From Bacilli bacterium (lineage in GTDB: Bacteria; Bacillota_I; Bacilli_A; RF39; UBA660): a stretch of 53,415 nt of DNA. The DNA lies in NCBI GenBank assembly GCA_017484125.1, contig JAFUTV010000003.1, positions 1 to 53,415 of the forward strand. The letters are read 5' to 3'. Shown here in pieces: positions 1,071-17,676 of this stretch (position 1 is its first letter; each line of letters starts with the position of its first letter). The translations under genes and the position numbers were made by a program. The notes below the pieces were generated by a model, which was not told where the DNA came from, did no database searches, and saw only the letters and a program-made list of their open reading frames with translations.

Positions 1071-2351
1071 CTACATAAATCCTTTCATTAATTCTTCCAT
1101 TTCTAATCTTTCCTCATCTGTCAATTCTTCTTTTTTAATATCTTGTTTAAACCACACTGGTGTTTGTTCTACACTCTTTGAACTCTTAGTTGTTTGTTTT
1201 GATACCTTTTTATATTCTTTTTCTGCTTGTTGCATAGCTTCTTCAGCAGTTTCAATTTTGTTTCTTTTCCACTGTCCTGCAATTGTTTCAATATAAGCTC
1301 TAGATAATTTATTATCATGTTTTCTTAATACATAATCTATTAAAACATTAACAACAGCAGGTTGTAATTTTAAATCTTCCAATAAATATTCTAATAATTT
1401 TAAATCCCTTGGAGTTGGTGCAACACCCTTATATTTATTTTTTAAAAAATCATATGGTGAAATATTTTCAAACACATATATCATTTTAGCTCTATTTGAT
1501 GTATCACCTTTTGGCATTTTTAAATAATCTGGTTGAGATTTATATACTAAAGTAGGAAGTTTGCCATTATTCATGTAAGTATAATATTCTCTAGTTTTTT
1601 TTCTTAAATCTGCCTCACTAATATAACCATTAGCATTAATTGTTCCACGAATGATTTCAGCCATTTTTAAAGTATCCAAATTATATATATATGCTAAATT
1701 ATTTATTAAATCTCTCATTTTTTTATTTAAAGATTTTTCATTAAAAATATTTTTAGGAATTGAAGCACTTAGCATATCAAAATCCACAACATCTTTAACA
1801 TTAACTTTGTTATATTCTTTATCTCTTATATCAAATTCAGGTATAACTGTAGATGATTTAAAAGTATGATTAATTTCTTTAGTTATTTCTTCATAACCAT
1901 CTAAACTAAAGTTAACACGCTGATATAAATTTCTTATGCTTTCATACTCTTTTTTACCAACATTATTGTAAAGCACAACATTAAAAATGGGATGAGACAA
2001 AAACTCTTTTGGTGATAGTGGTGAATAAAGTTCATATATATATGAAGCAACATCTCCATCTTTATAAAATGTACGAACAAGTCCAACTGACTCTAAAGCT
2101 TCCCTTGCTTTTTTTATCATTTGTAAATCTGTTTTCATCAAACTCATTAAATGATGATGAGTAAAATCTTGACTTTCAATTTGCAGTTTATCTAAATCAT
2201 TAATTAAAGTAAGATATAAGCATATTGCAATTGGTCCAATAATAGGTTCATATAATGATATTAAATTCTTTTTATCATTATCATCTAGAATGCTTTTATT
2301 AATTACAGTATACGTATCTGCTGGAAGTAAAATTTTCACTATCATCACCAT
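1071..2351 (-). CDS. dnaB: Replication initiation/membrane attachment protein DnaB
   Basis: 426-residue member of the DnaB/DnaD superfamily of low-GC Gram-positives; it acts with DnaD and DnaI to load helicase. The C-terminal DDBH2 domain carries the diagnostic Y-x3-I-x3-W motif as YIETIAGQW (353-361), followed by a charged tail. No ATPase motifs, as expected: this is not the helicase also called DnaB in E. coli. The ATG at 2351 has AGGTAGG upstream; M3 is an alternative start. nrdR, its usual upstream neighbour in Bacillus, is absent. A TGA-TACAAT extended -10 lies about 20 nt upstream. Confidence 0.88.
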   Translation of the reverse strand: MVMIVKILLPADTYTVINKSILDDNDKKNLISLYEPIIGPIAICLYLTLINDLDKLQIESQDFTHHHLMSLMKTDLQMIKKAREALESVGLVRTFYKDGDVASYIYELYSPLSPKEFLSHPIFNVVLYNNVGKKEYESIRNLYQRVNFSLDGYEEITKEINHTFKSSTVIPEFDIRDKEYNKVNVKDVVDFDMLSASIPKNIFNEKSLNKKMRDLINNLAYIYNLDTLKMAEIIRGTINANGYISEADLRKKTREYYTYMNNGKLPTLVYKSQPDYLKMPKGDTSNRAKMIYVFENISPYDFLKNKYKGVAPTPRDLKLLEYLLEDLKLQPAVVNVLIDYVLRKHDNKLSRAYIETIAGQWKRNKIETAEEAMQQAEKEYKKVSKQTTKSSKSVEQTPVWFKQDIKKEELTDEERLEMEELMKGFM

Positions 2352-2523: not shown

Positions 2524-2552
2524 TTGTCTTTTTATTAACATTATGATATAAG
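2524..2552 (+). promoter_or_regulatory. Candidate promoter of small hydrophobic peptide mRNA
   Basis: TTGTCT (2524-2529), 17-nt spacer, TATAAG (2547-2552); an overlapping TATGAT sits at 2542. Predicted start about 2559, next to the first arm of an 11-bp inverted repeat (2560-2570). Confidence 0.45.
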
Positions 2553-2626
2553 GTTATTCGACACATTTTAACAGTGTGAATTTTATGAATGTCTTGTGCC
2601 TTTCTTTTTTAGAAAGGAGGGATAAC

Positions 2627-2719
2627 ATGTCTTTTAACAAATGTTATAAGATTATTATTTTATTATTTAAAACTATTTTTATTCTCCTTTGTTTAATTAC
2701 TATATTAATTTTTATATAA
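2627..2719 (+). CDS. Small hydrophobic peptide, candidate type I toxin
   Basis: 30-residue frame starting MSFNKCYK and continuing as an almost uninterrupted run of I, L and F with one lysine (K15) and no charged tail: one predicted membrane helix. A near-perfect Shine-Dalgarno AAAGGAGG (2613-2620) lies 6 nt before the ATG. That site is partly buried in a hairpin: CCTTTCT (2599-2605) pairs with AGAAAGG (2611-2617) around TTTTT. On the opposite strand a promoter (2824-2852) and terminator (2718-2769) would make an antisense RNA over the 3' end. Single-helix peptide, sequestered ribosome site and convergent antisense RNA is the layout of TxpA/RatA, BsrG/SR4 and Fst systems. No specific family is recognised; toxicity is inferred. 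Confidence 0.5.
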   Translation: MSFNKCYKIIILLFKTIFILLCLITILIFI

Positions 2720-2769
2720 AAAAAGACACTTCACTAATTTTTCCACTGGGGGTTTTGTTAGTGAGTGTC
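2718..2769 (-). terminator. Strong intrinsic terminator (lon and/or antisense RNA)
   Basis: On minus, GACACTCACTAA (2769-2758) pairs with TTAGTGAAGTGTC (2737-2725) with one bulged base, followed by seven T (2724-2718). No T tract follows on plus. It overlaps the stop codon of the peptide at 2627-2719. It can end lon, whose stop is 99 nt upstream, as well as the proposed antisense RNA. Confidence 0.8.
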
Positions 2770-2817
2770 AAACCAAAAAAATGGCACAACATTCTAAATT
2801 ACTCTAAAATGTGTCCT
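2718..2817 (-). ncRNA. Candidate antisense RNA (type I antitoxin-like)
   Basis: Promoter TTGAAT (2852-2847), 17-nt spacer, TATAAA (2829-2824) on minus predicts a start near 2817 and an RNA of about 100 nt ending at the terminator 2769-2718. It is antisense to the 3' part of the peptide transcript. Its 5' blocks, GACACATTTTA (2815-2805) and GAATGTTGTGCC (2794-2783), repeat blocks at the 5' end of the sense transcript (2560-2570; 2587-2600 with a CT insertion). It may instead be just the lon 3' UTR. Confidence 0.4.
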
Positions 2818-2867
2818 AAAAAGTTTATAACATATTTTTTATAAATATTCAACATTAATTATATAAT

Positions 2868-5192
2868 TTATTTAAACAAATCATTAAATATTTCTTCATA
2901 GTTACTAACTTTTATTATCTTTAATTTAGATAGAATTTTCTCAGGTATATCCTCCAAATCTTTTTCATTAGATAAAGGAATGTATATTTTTGTTATTTTG
3001 TTATTAAAAGCAGCAAGTATTTTTTCTTTTAATCCACCAATTTGAAGAATATCACCCCTTAATGATATTTCACCGGTCATAGCTATATTTTTAGGAATAG
3101 TTTTATTTAAAATTAAAGATAAAATACATGTGGTAATAGTAATTCCAGCTGATGGACCATCTTTTTTAATAGCAGCATTTAATGCATGTAAATGAATATC
3201 TTTAGTATTAAAATAATAATCACTAATTTTATATAAATCATTATGCGATCTAATATAACTTATTGCTACGCTAATTGATTCAGTAGTCGACTGACCCAGT
3301 AATCCTGTTGTAATAATATTGCCTTTTCCTTCATACATACAACATTCAATTGGTAAAATACTTCCACCAAGATTAGTACATGCAAGAGCATTAACTAAAC
3401 CAGGAGTTAAAGTTTTAGATAATTCTTCAGTTCCAAATAATGGATTACCTAAATACTTTATAACTAACTTTTCATCTAGATTAATTGGTAATTTTATATT
3501 ATTATTTGATTCATCAGTTATTATTTTTCTAACTAAACTTTCTAATATTCTAGATAATTCTCTTACACCAGATTCTTTTGTATAATTATTGATTATAAAT
3601 AGTAATAATTCATCTTTAAATTTGATATCATCATTTTTAACAATATGACTATCAAATATTTTAGGAAGAATATATTTTTTAGCCATAGTTATTTTTTCAA
3701 AATCACTATAAGAAGATATTTCTAATATTTCTAATCTATCTCTTAAAGCAACAGGAATATTGTCAATATCATTAGCAGTTAGTATAAAAAGTACATTAGA
3801 TAAATCGAATGGTTCTTCAATATAATTATCAATAAAATATTGATTTTGTGATGTATCTAATATTTCAAGTAATGCTGAAGTAGGATCACCTCTAAAGTCT
3901 TTACCCATTTTGTCTACTTCATCTATTAGTATTAATGGATTTTTTACCCCACACTTGCTAATAGCTTGAATAATCTTTCCAGGATTACTTCCTAAATAAG
4001 TTCTTCGATGGCCTACTAATTCTGATGGATCAGTAAGTCCACCAACACTTATTTTATAAAACTCTTTATTTAAACTTTCTGCAATAGAAATAGCTATGGA
4101 AGTTTTACCAACGCCTGGTGCACCAACTAAACACAAAATTGGACTTTTAAATTCTGGATTTCTCTTTTTAATTGTAATATATTCTATTATTCTATTTTTA
4201 ACATTATCTAAACCATAATGAGTTTTATCCAAATTTTTTCTTACTAGTGTTGTATTATAATTATCCTTTTTTGATTTATTCCATGGTAAATTAATAACAG
4301 TATCTAAATAATTAATAATAATTGAACTTTCTGGATAATTTTCATTCATATTTGCATATTTATGAAGTTCTCTAAGTAGTTTTTCCTTAGTTTTTTCATT
4401 TGTATTTATCTTATTTATTCTTTCTTCATAATTATTAATTATTTCTTCTTTATCATTTTCTTCACCAAGTTCTTTTTTAATCTCTTTTAATTTTGATTTA
4501 AGAATAAATTCTTTTTGATTTCTTTCTAAATCTTCTTGTAATACTTCATCTAACTTGGTATCTAATTTTAATATTTCTAATTCAATTGATATATCATAAA
4601 TTAAAGCGTTAGCTCTTTTCATAGGGCTAACTTCTTCCATATATAATATTTTTTTATCTAATGAAAATGGTAAGAAAGCCGTTATTATATCCGTGATTAT
4701 TCCTAAATCATCATTATTTTTAATTGCTGATAGCACACTATTAGATAATGATGGATTATCATTAATATACTTTTTTAATAATTCAATTAATTTTCTTTTA
4801 ATTGCAGTTTCAGATACTAAATCTTCTTCTGGAGGATTTACAACACTCACATCTGCCATTAAAATATCTTCATCATCATCAAAATTATTATACTTATTTA
4901 CATCAACTCTTTTTGTTCCAGAAATAACAATTCTAATATTTCCATTAGGAAGTTCAATACTAGATTTTAAATGAGCAACTACTCCAACTACTGGTAAATC
5001 ATTAATTTCAGGAGTTTCTTCCAAAGAATTTTTAGGACACACAACAAGTAGATCACCATTGTGATGCTTTTTTGATAACTCTATTATTTTTTCACTTATA
5101 CTATTATTTAATTCAAGTTTAACATCTTGCTTAGGTAAGATGACAAAACCTTTAAGAAGCATTACGGGCAAATAGTTGTTCAATTTTGTCAT
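2868..5192 (-). CDS. lon: ATP-dependent protease Lon (LonA)
   Basis: 774-residue cytosolic AAA+ protease that degrades misfolded and regulatory proteins. N-terminal substrate-binding domain about 6-200, coiled-coil linker about 205-290, Walker A GAPGVGKT (357-364), Walker B ILIDEVD (421-427), and C-terminal protease domain with the Ser-Lys dyad S681 (DGPSAG) and K724 (KEKILAA), spaced 43 residues as in E. coli. All domains are intact. The annotated ATG abuts the ribosome site (AGAGGAG-ATG), too close; TTG at codon 4 (5183) sits 9 nt from it and may be the real start. TTGCTA-N16-TAATAT (5243-5216) is a plausible promoter. No CIRCE element is seen. Confidence 0.95.
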   Translation of the reverse strand: MTKLNNYLPVMLLKGFVILPKQDVKLELNNSISEKIIELSKKHHNGDLLVVCPKNSLEETPEINDLPVVGVVAHLKSSIELPNGNIRIVISGTKRVDVNKYNNFDDDEDILMADVSVVNPPEEDLVSETAIKRKLIELLKKYINDNPSLSNSVLSAIKNNDDLGIITDIITAFLPFSLDKKILYMEEVSPMKRANALIYDISIELEILKLDTKLDEVLQEDLERNQKEFILKSKLKEIKKELGEENDKEEIINNYEERINKINTNEKTKEKLLRELHKYANMNENYPESSIIINYLDTVINLPWNKSKKDNYNTTLVRKNLDKTHYGLDNVKNRIIEYITIKKRNPEFKSPILCLVGAPGVGKTSIAISIAESLNKEFYKISVGGLTDPSELVGHRRTYLGSNPGKIIQAISKCGVKNPLILIDEVDKMGKDFRGDPTSALLEILDTSQNQYFIDNYIEEPFDLSNVLFILTANDIDNIPVALRDRLEILEISSYSDFEKITMAKKYILPKIFDSHIVKNDDIKFKDELLLFIINNYTKESGVRELSRILESLVRKIITDESNNNIKLPINLDEKLVIKYLGNPLFGTEELSKTLTPGLVNALACTNLGGSILPIECCMYEGKGNIITTGLLGQSTTESISVAISYIRSHNDLYKISDYYFNTKDIHLHALNAAIKKDGPSAGITITTCILSLILNKTIPKNIAMTGEISLRGDILQIGGLKEKILAAFNNKITKIYIPLSNEKDLEDIPEKILSKLKIIKVSNYEEIFNDLFK

Positions 5193-17470: not shown

Positions 17471-17676
17471 TAAAAAAATCATAAACTAAAGGACGAATTG
17501 CTCGCGGTACCACCTTAATTTATGATTTAAATCATACACTTTATTAACGTAACGTGTTATTACCCGATTATTTTTAGTCAAGCAACCTTCATAAGTAATT
17601 ATTATCTATTTCCACCAAACATAGATTCTCTTTAAATAATTATTCTTATTACTCCTCTTGAGTTCAAACAAAATAC
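17471..17676 (-). promoter_or_regulatory. T-box riboswitch of valS
   Basis: The antiterminator core AAGGTGGTACCGCG is at 17516-17503. The competing terminator pairs AAATCATAAA-TTAAGG (17528-17513) with CCTTTAG-TTTATGATTT and ends in seven T. A stem I region with AGAGAATCT and GGTGGAAATAGAT lies 5' of it. GTT (17586-17584), after GAAG on the 3' side of stem I, is a likely valine specifier. Uncharged tRNA-Val should favour readthrough. Confidence 0.9.

Follow-up and report, generated by a model that had tools for sequence, protein, structure and literature searches.

A putative type I toxin-antitoxin-like module with a predicted end-paired toxin mRNA in uncultured bacteria of the UBA660 lineage

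The DNA analysed here (the window) comprises 53,415 nucleotides (nt), positions 1 to 53,415 of contig JAFUTV010000003.1 (assembly GCA_017484125.1; Bacilli bacterium, GTDB lineage Bacillota_I; Bacilli_A; RF39; UBA660). Positions 2524-2852 carry a locus that is probably a chromosomal type I toxin-antitoxin (TA)-like module, consisting of a gene for a short hydrophobic peptide and a convergent gene for a putative antisense RNA. The parts of the locus, their conservation, the selection acting on the peptide and the conserved pairing of the two transcript arms were read from the sequence and from comparison with related genomes. An earlier note on this DNA had listed promoters, an open reading frame (ORF), a hairpin at the Shine-Dalgarno sequence (SD), an antisense RNA with terminator, and inverted blocks; all were present (Table 1). 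Its TA reading gained strong backing from comparison: many loci combine the peptide with the SD hairpin, the paired arms, the promoters and the antisense terminator.

Anatomy and conservation of the locus

The toxin mRNA is predicted to start at G2560. Half of its SD lies inside the hairpin 2599-2617, and no other [A/G]GGAGG-ATG site in the entire window has an ORF below 60 amino acids (aa). On the opposite strand, an antisense RNA in cis, with a promoter and a terminator of its own, is predicted and is conserved in relatives. It would run from 2816 to 2718, covering the 3' untranslated region (UTR) together with the final two stop-codon bases and leaving the ORF body uncovered. Its terminator is formed by the stem 2725-2737/2758-2769, followed by seven T residues at 2724-2718. 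The inverted blocks match exactly at 2560-2570/2805-2815 and with a 2-nt bulge at 2587-2600/2783-2794. RNA between the block ends (2560-2815, 256 nt) had a predicted folding energy of -61.8 kcal/mol (z = -5.25, 0 of 200 shuffles), and the antisense RNA folded with z = -3.97. A simple promoter scan of the region yielded no promoter excess over shuffles, so the promoter calls rest on positional conservation in relatives and not on consensus match alone.

The search of related genomes for SD hairpin, peptide and paired blocks, which had been proposed as a check, retrieved module members in 4 of the 5 genomes examined of the window's genus (g1; a second genus is referred to as g24, and G and L codes denote genomes and loci). 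In g1, the loci fell into at least five sequence lineages in which the peptide is intact and the arms covary. All parts occurred together in the complete g1 loci, seven in a first set and two of a divergent lineage D (L101, L107). In the latter the anatomy was kept while most of the sequence differed; both the SD stem (CCTTAAT/ATTAAGG) and the antisense terminator had changed. G004 (SVAI01, Bacillota bacterium SIG198) contained five complete modules, one of them with an orphan antisense gene immediately downstream; G002 (CAMOFW01, uncultured Tenericutes bacterium) contained three complete modules and fragments of others at contig ends, and G001 two copies cut by contig ends. The site between lon and dnaB was not common to the relatives. 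Peptides of g1 had 22-30 aa and the common pattern M-x-basic...Y-x-I-I-I-L-L.

The 1.18-Mb genome of the window contains a second antisense gene, 85% identical and standing alone with no adjacent toxin ORF, between an nfo-like gene and a cysteine desulfurase gene (both read from translations). By prediction, orphan antisense RNAs could still pair, at -118 to -121 kcal/mol, with a toxin 3' UTR encoded in their own genome. At L049 (G004:C1:341750-342202), a complete module is directly followed by an orphan antisense gene, and the 3' arm of the orphan gives the toxin 5' arm a more stable pairing (-38.6) than the module's own 3' arm does (-34.1). At L101 (G002:C80), L107 (G004:C1:771.5k) and L055 (G001:C74), modules of different lineages lie upstream of apparently the same ABC transporter ATPase gene, which suggests an old site with sequence turnover.

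Covariance models were built for the antisense RNA (R1), for the leader (R2) and for the leader with the divergent lineage D added (R3). R1 and R2, made from the window's genus only, detected nothing further in 291 family genomes. R3 gave one match in another genus, G285, with E = 0.0015 per genome, a value that is weak on its own over 386 genomes. The G285 copy has parts outside the model, namely a promoter, a hydrophobic peptide (MNKREIALYIIILLLFFIVIVLLFK), a terminator in the antisense direction and a 3' arm complementary to the 5' arm (z = -8.68). Used as DNA query at E <= 1e-5, it had matches in 214 of the 386 genomes of the family and in 106 of its 150 genera; by hand count of the table, 101 genomes reached E <= 1e-20, and 76 reached E <= 1e-40. 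The weakest matches may span part of the module only. As scoring took in the two best candidates of each genome only, the copy numbers are minimum values. In plain local alignment, window RNA against family consensus was not significant (30 versus a shuffled maximum of 35; L048 37 versus 33), and the link from the window to the wider family therefore rests on the model match and the identical anatomy.

In the wider family the peptide is near-invariant with 25 aa (MTKRExSxFIIILLLFFIVITLLFK). Thirty complete family copies were aligned, 28 of which have an ORF of exactly 25 codons. Among these 28, differences at third codon positions amounted to 0.21 versus 0.12 and 0.10 at the other positions, and mean nonsynonymous (dN) and synonymous (dS) divergence were 0.10 and 0.39 (dN/dS 0.26; 359 non-independent pairs). 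By this codon-level comparison, the small hydrophobic peptide gene with its ribosome binding site is conserved as a protein, under purifying selection in the wider family. The antisense promoter of the wider family reads TTGnnA-N17/18-TATnAT in the flank consensus.

Genomes of the family often carry more than one copy. Tandem clusters of 2-3 modules or remnants with a spacing of 0.3-1.3 kb were noted at L150, L153, L121 and L129 and in G117:C10 and G234:C9; decayed members (broken ORF or lost antisense terminator) stand there next to intact ones. Multiple, tandem and decaying copies together with orphan antisense RNAs are common for TA loci.

Table 1. Features of the putative toxin-antitoxin-like locus in the window
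Feature	Coordinates	Strand	Basis
Toxin promoter, TTGTCT 2524-2529, N17, TATAAG 2547-2552, extended -10 TG 2544-2545	2524-2552	+	Sequence; same position and form at G004 and G002 loci; TATAAT form kept in wider family
5' arm, toxin mRNA leader, GACACATTTTA ... GAATGTCTTGTGCC	2560-2600	+	Folding; kept in at least five lineages of the window's genus and in the family
SD hairpin CCTTTC/GAAAGG, 2599-2604/2612-2617	2599-2617	+	Compensatory changes; CCTTAAT/ATTAAGG instead in lineage D
SD, AAGGAGGG	2614-2621	+	Sequence
Toxin-like peptide ORF, 30 aa, hydrophobic, MSFNKCYKIIILLFKTIFILLCLITILIFI	2627-2719	+	Homologous peptides; purifying selection in wider family
Predicted antisense RNA, about 99 nt, 5' hairpin and intrinsic terminator	2718-2816	-	Sequence, folding, 85% identical orphan copy in genome
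3' arm of toxin mRNA, GGCACAACATTC ... TAAAATGTGTCC	2783-2816	+	Folding, arm pairing; T-tract directly after arm in wider family is the likely sense 3' end
Antisense promoter, TTGAAT 2852-2847, N17, TATAAA 2829-2824	2824-2852	-	Sequence; several relatives with extended -10

The locus is flanked by a DnaB-like replication initiation gene (1071-2351, minus strand) and lon (2868-5192, minus strand), both named from their translations. Within 2718-2870 of the window, lon has no terminator of its own, and its stop codon lies about 16 nt before the antisense -35 box; relatives have a hairpin and T-run directly after lon. Transcription of lon probably reads into the antisense RNA and stops at the antisense terminator, which would couple the supply of antitoxin to the expression of lon. 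Within the leader, the toxin frame has no stop codon 5' of the ATG (2576-2719; GTG 2576, ATG 2585), and a 47-aa form is possible. Elsewhere in the window, a T-box leader (RF00230, E = 7.4e-22) was located at 17486-17667 on the minus strand.

End-pairing of the toxin mRNA and the symmetric starts

In the 30-locus alignment, the end helix (24 pairs) was 98.7% paired, as compared to 16-40% when the partner was slid by 1-3 columns. Its outer part is mostly invariant and so uninformative by itself; the covarying pairs belong to the inner helix, where five copies, for example, have C-G in place of U-A. In the family alignment, pairing reached 97.4% for the SD hairpin and the antisense terminator, with compensatory changes. 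A sequence-blind pairwise arm alignment masked compensatory changes, and arm swapping was used instead. In g1 the cognate set of 5' and 3' arms was the most stable (1 of 120 permutations), and over ten loci from both genera 2 of 20,000 random pairings were as stable as the cognate one. For the window, the arm-arm duplex was calculated at -29.6 kcal/mol versus a shuffled mean of about -9. Covariation of the paired blocks, set beforehand as a check, was thereby recovered, and the proposed pairing of the 5' and 3' ends of the toxin mRNA was borne out at the level of predicted structure. In 7 of 8 g24 copies a T-tract directly follows the 3' arm. This is therefore the most likely end of the sense RNA, whose first base would pair with its last.

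The earlier note had also remarked that both predicted transcripts start with the same sequence. In the window's genus the 3' arm begins right at the end of the antisense promoter. An antisense RNA starting at the 3' arm must begin with the letters of the 5' arm and so has its first letters in common with the toxin mRNA. In the genera inspected outside g1, this promoter is situated about 45 nt beyond the inverted block and the arms still pair, which marks end-pairing as the conserved property and identical starts as a local consequence. The symmetry thus holds for g1 and does not extend to a general trait: by comparison of the sequences, identical 5' ends are special to the window's genus, and end-pairing of the toxin mRNA is the conserved feature. 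A small hairpin (CAAGTTTCCTTG) is conserved in the wider family (L134-L163), where it lies immediately downstream of the 3' arm, between this arm and the antisense promoter; the window's genus lacks it.

Proposed mechanism and competing explanations

Transcription, toxicity, antitoxin action, the part of RNase III and the order of events are inferred from this anatomy, and the module may operate as follows. A strong promoter would give an mRNA of about 257 nt for a 30-aa single-helix membrane peptide. With the SD placed in the local hairpin and the first and last nucleotides joined in an end helix of 30-35 bp, the mRNA would be compact, exonuclease-resistant and poorly translated. The convergent RNA of about 100 nt, fully complementary to the 3' UTR only, would most likely recognise the loop of the terminator stem (GGGGGUUUUG/CAAAACCCCC), a plausible first contact in the window's genus, both RNAs carrying the stem. 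It would then invade the 3' arm and displace the 5' leader, and exposure of the resulting duplex to RNase III would keep the toxin mRNA low. Confinement of the antisense RNA to the 3' UTR favours RNase III-mediated removal, as in txpA/RatA (PMC4147584). When antisense supply drops, the remaining mRNA would be translated and the peptide would damage the membrane.

Several results weigh against this reading. The sense T-tract after the 3' arm is lost in the window itself, where the sense 3' end is uncertain. In g24 alone, cognate arms were no better than swapped ones (27 of 120 permutations), since the arms barely vary there. Removal of the 3' arm barely altered access to SD and AUG in folding calculations, which makes any role of the end helix tentative. 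SD accessibility was low in every state: without the 3' arm it changed from 0.06 to 0.12 in the window; it was 0.14-0.19 in most g1 relatives, and the shift without the 3' arm reached at most about 0.17 in single g24 copies. With SD access nearly unchanged, the local hairpin seems to be the main SD block in these models, and the chief effect of the end helix may be to stabilise the mRNA or to keep it inert during transcription. Of the hok-like control suggested previously, end-pairing itself was retained, and control of SD access by end-pairing was not supported by folding.

The bases CC 2599-2600 (CC of TGTGCC; TTTCCC in the family) take part in the SD hairpin as well as in the end helix. We regard it as doubtful, though conceivable, that they form a strand-exchange switch in which the antisense RNA mimics the toxin mRNA 5' leader and competes with it for the 3' arm. 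Antisense RNA on the 3' arm would then free the leader, the SD hairpin would close fully, and binding far 3' would shut initiation at the 5' end.

The same anatomy could serve another purpose if the peptide were a non-toxic small membrane protein, such as a regulator or stress peptide, with its mRNA under cis antisense control. The strong conservation of the peptide would fit this, and small membrane peptides need not be toxic; however, tight silencing in several layers (by SD hairpin, closed mRNA and antisense RNA), along with tandem duplication, decayed copies and orphan RNAs that resemble antitoxins, suits a TA module better, and we consider a non-toxic protein unlikely. Quite unlikely, too, is a use of the inverted blocks for pairing in trans, by which the shared 5' hairpins of the two RNAs would exchange strands as an inverted-repeat counterpart of DRa/DRb in Fst, instead of end-pairing of the mRNA. 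The 5' arms of toxin and antisense RNA do pair at about -12 to -27 kcal/mol, and the 5' arm hairpin is partly self-complementary, but the cis end helix is far stronger (-30 to -56), coevolves within loci and is kept in genera whose antisense RNA starts about 45 nt upstream of the block.

A miniature mobile element, with the blocks as terminal inverted repeats and the peptide and RNAs incidental, would account for multiple, dispersed and non-syntenic copies with inverted repeats at both ends. It is highly improbable and was dropped: conservation runs beyond both repeats up to the -35 boxes of both promoters, the repeats differ among lineages yet stay complementary within a locus, and the ORF is under purifying selection. 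That the entire pattern arose by chance in an AT-rich intergenic region, as a promoter scan no richer than shuffles might suggest, is refuted for practical purposes by conservation across several lineages and most of the genera sampled from the family.

Relation to known systems

Rfam covariance models gave no match up to E = 5 for the window or E = 1 for a relative, and the peptides had no match in Pfam, NCBIfam and PHROGs. DNA similarity searches of phage and plasmid collections with the window copy and a family copy found none, pattern scans of IMG/VR gave no true members and two chance matches without the anatomy, and a pattern scan of genome contigs returned the two named genus members (G004, G002) and otherwise chance matches only. 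Among open-licence papers, none was found to report a system of this type from the lineage. Sequence searches detect type I modules poorly, and the distribution of such modules is considered narrow (PMC12390103). The present loci would constitute an apparently undescribed module family, present in most of the genera sampled from an uncultured bacterial family and marked by a near-invariant peptide of 25 aa and a covariation-backed RNA fold. Their natural variants, tandem copies and orphan antisense RNAs provide a comparative set for the role of end-pairing in toxin mRNAs and for the way TA modules spread and decay on small genomes.

With par(pAD1)/Fst-RNAII of the Fst/Ldr superfamily, the locus shares convergent promoters, a short hydrophobic peptide, an SD in an intramolecular stem-loop, terminator-loop pairing and a possible U-turn (YUNR) in the toxin RNA (PMC7472228). 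In Fst, direct repeats in the DNA give the two RNAs complementarity close to their 5' ends, whereas inverted repeats are present here; no direct repeats of the DRa/DRb type were found in the locus, only the inverted blocks. The PXXXG(C) motif of the Fst/Ldr hydrophobic domain is absent from all listed peptides. The two RNAs of Fst share a bidirectional terminator, whereas the terminator stem here has a T-run in the antisense direction only, and the sense T-tract of relatives follows the 3' arm. The antisense RNA of the present locus stays short of the SD.

Like txpA/RatA and bsrG/SR4 of Bacillus subtilis, the convergent RNAs (antisense 2816-2718) overlap at their 3' ends only, with RNase III-dependent mRNA degradation as the likely mode (PMC4147584, PMC8309996). 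The TxpA and BsrG peptides have 59 and 38 aa and are unrelated in sequence to those described here, which at 22-30 aa are not TxpA-like in length (about 59 aa), and a flush helix of the 5' and 3' ends with coevolving arms was not described for either system in the literature examined. End-paired toxin mRNAs and short SD-hiding hairpins are known from hok/Sok and AapA/IsoA (PMC6733600), and the long-distance 5'-3' pairing is predicted and coevolves here as well. The 3' end of AapA masks the SD, and Hok depends on the mok leader ORF; folding places the present SD in a local hairpin and not under the 3' end, and the antisense RNA would target the 3' UTR. The CD2517.1-RCd8 modules of Clostridioides difficile are comparable as convergent, overlapping toxin and antisense genes of a low-GC Gram-positive (PMC6563280), but their toxins have 50-53 aa and no sequence relation was seen. 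Taken together, the loci are best read as an apparently undescribed, type I toxin-antitoxin-like family that stands outside Fst/Ldr, TxpA/RatA and hok.
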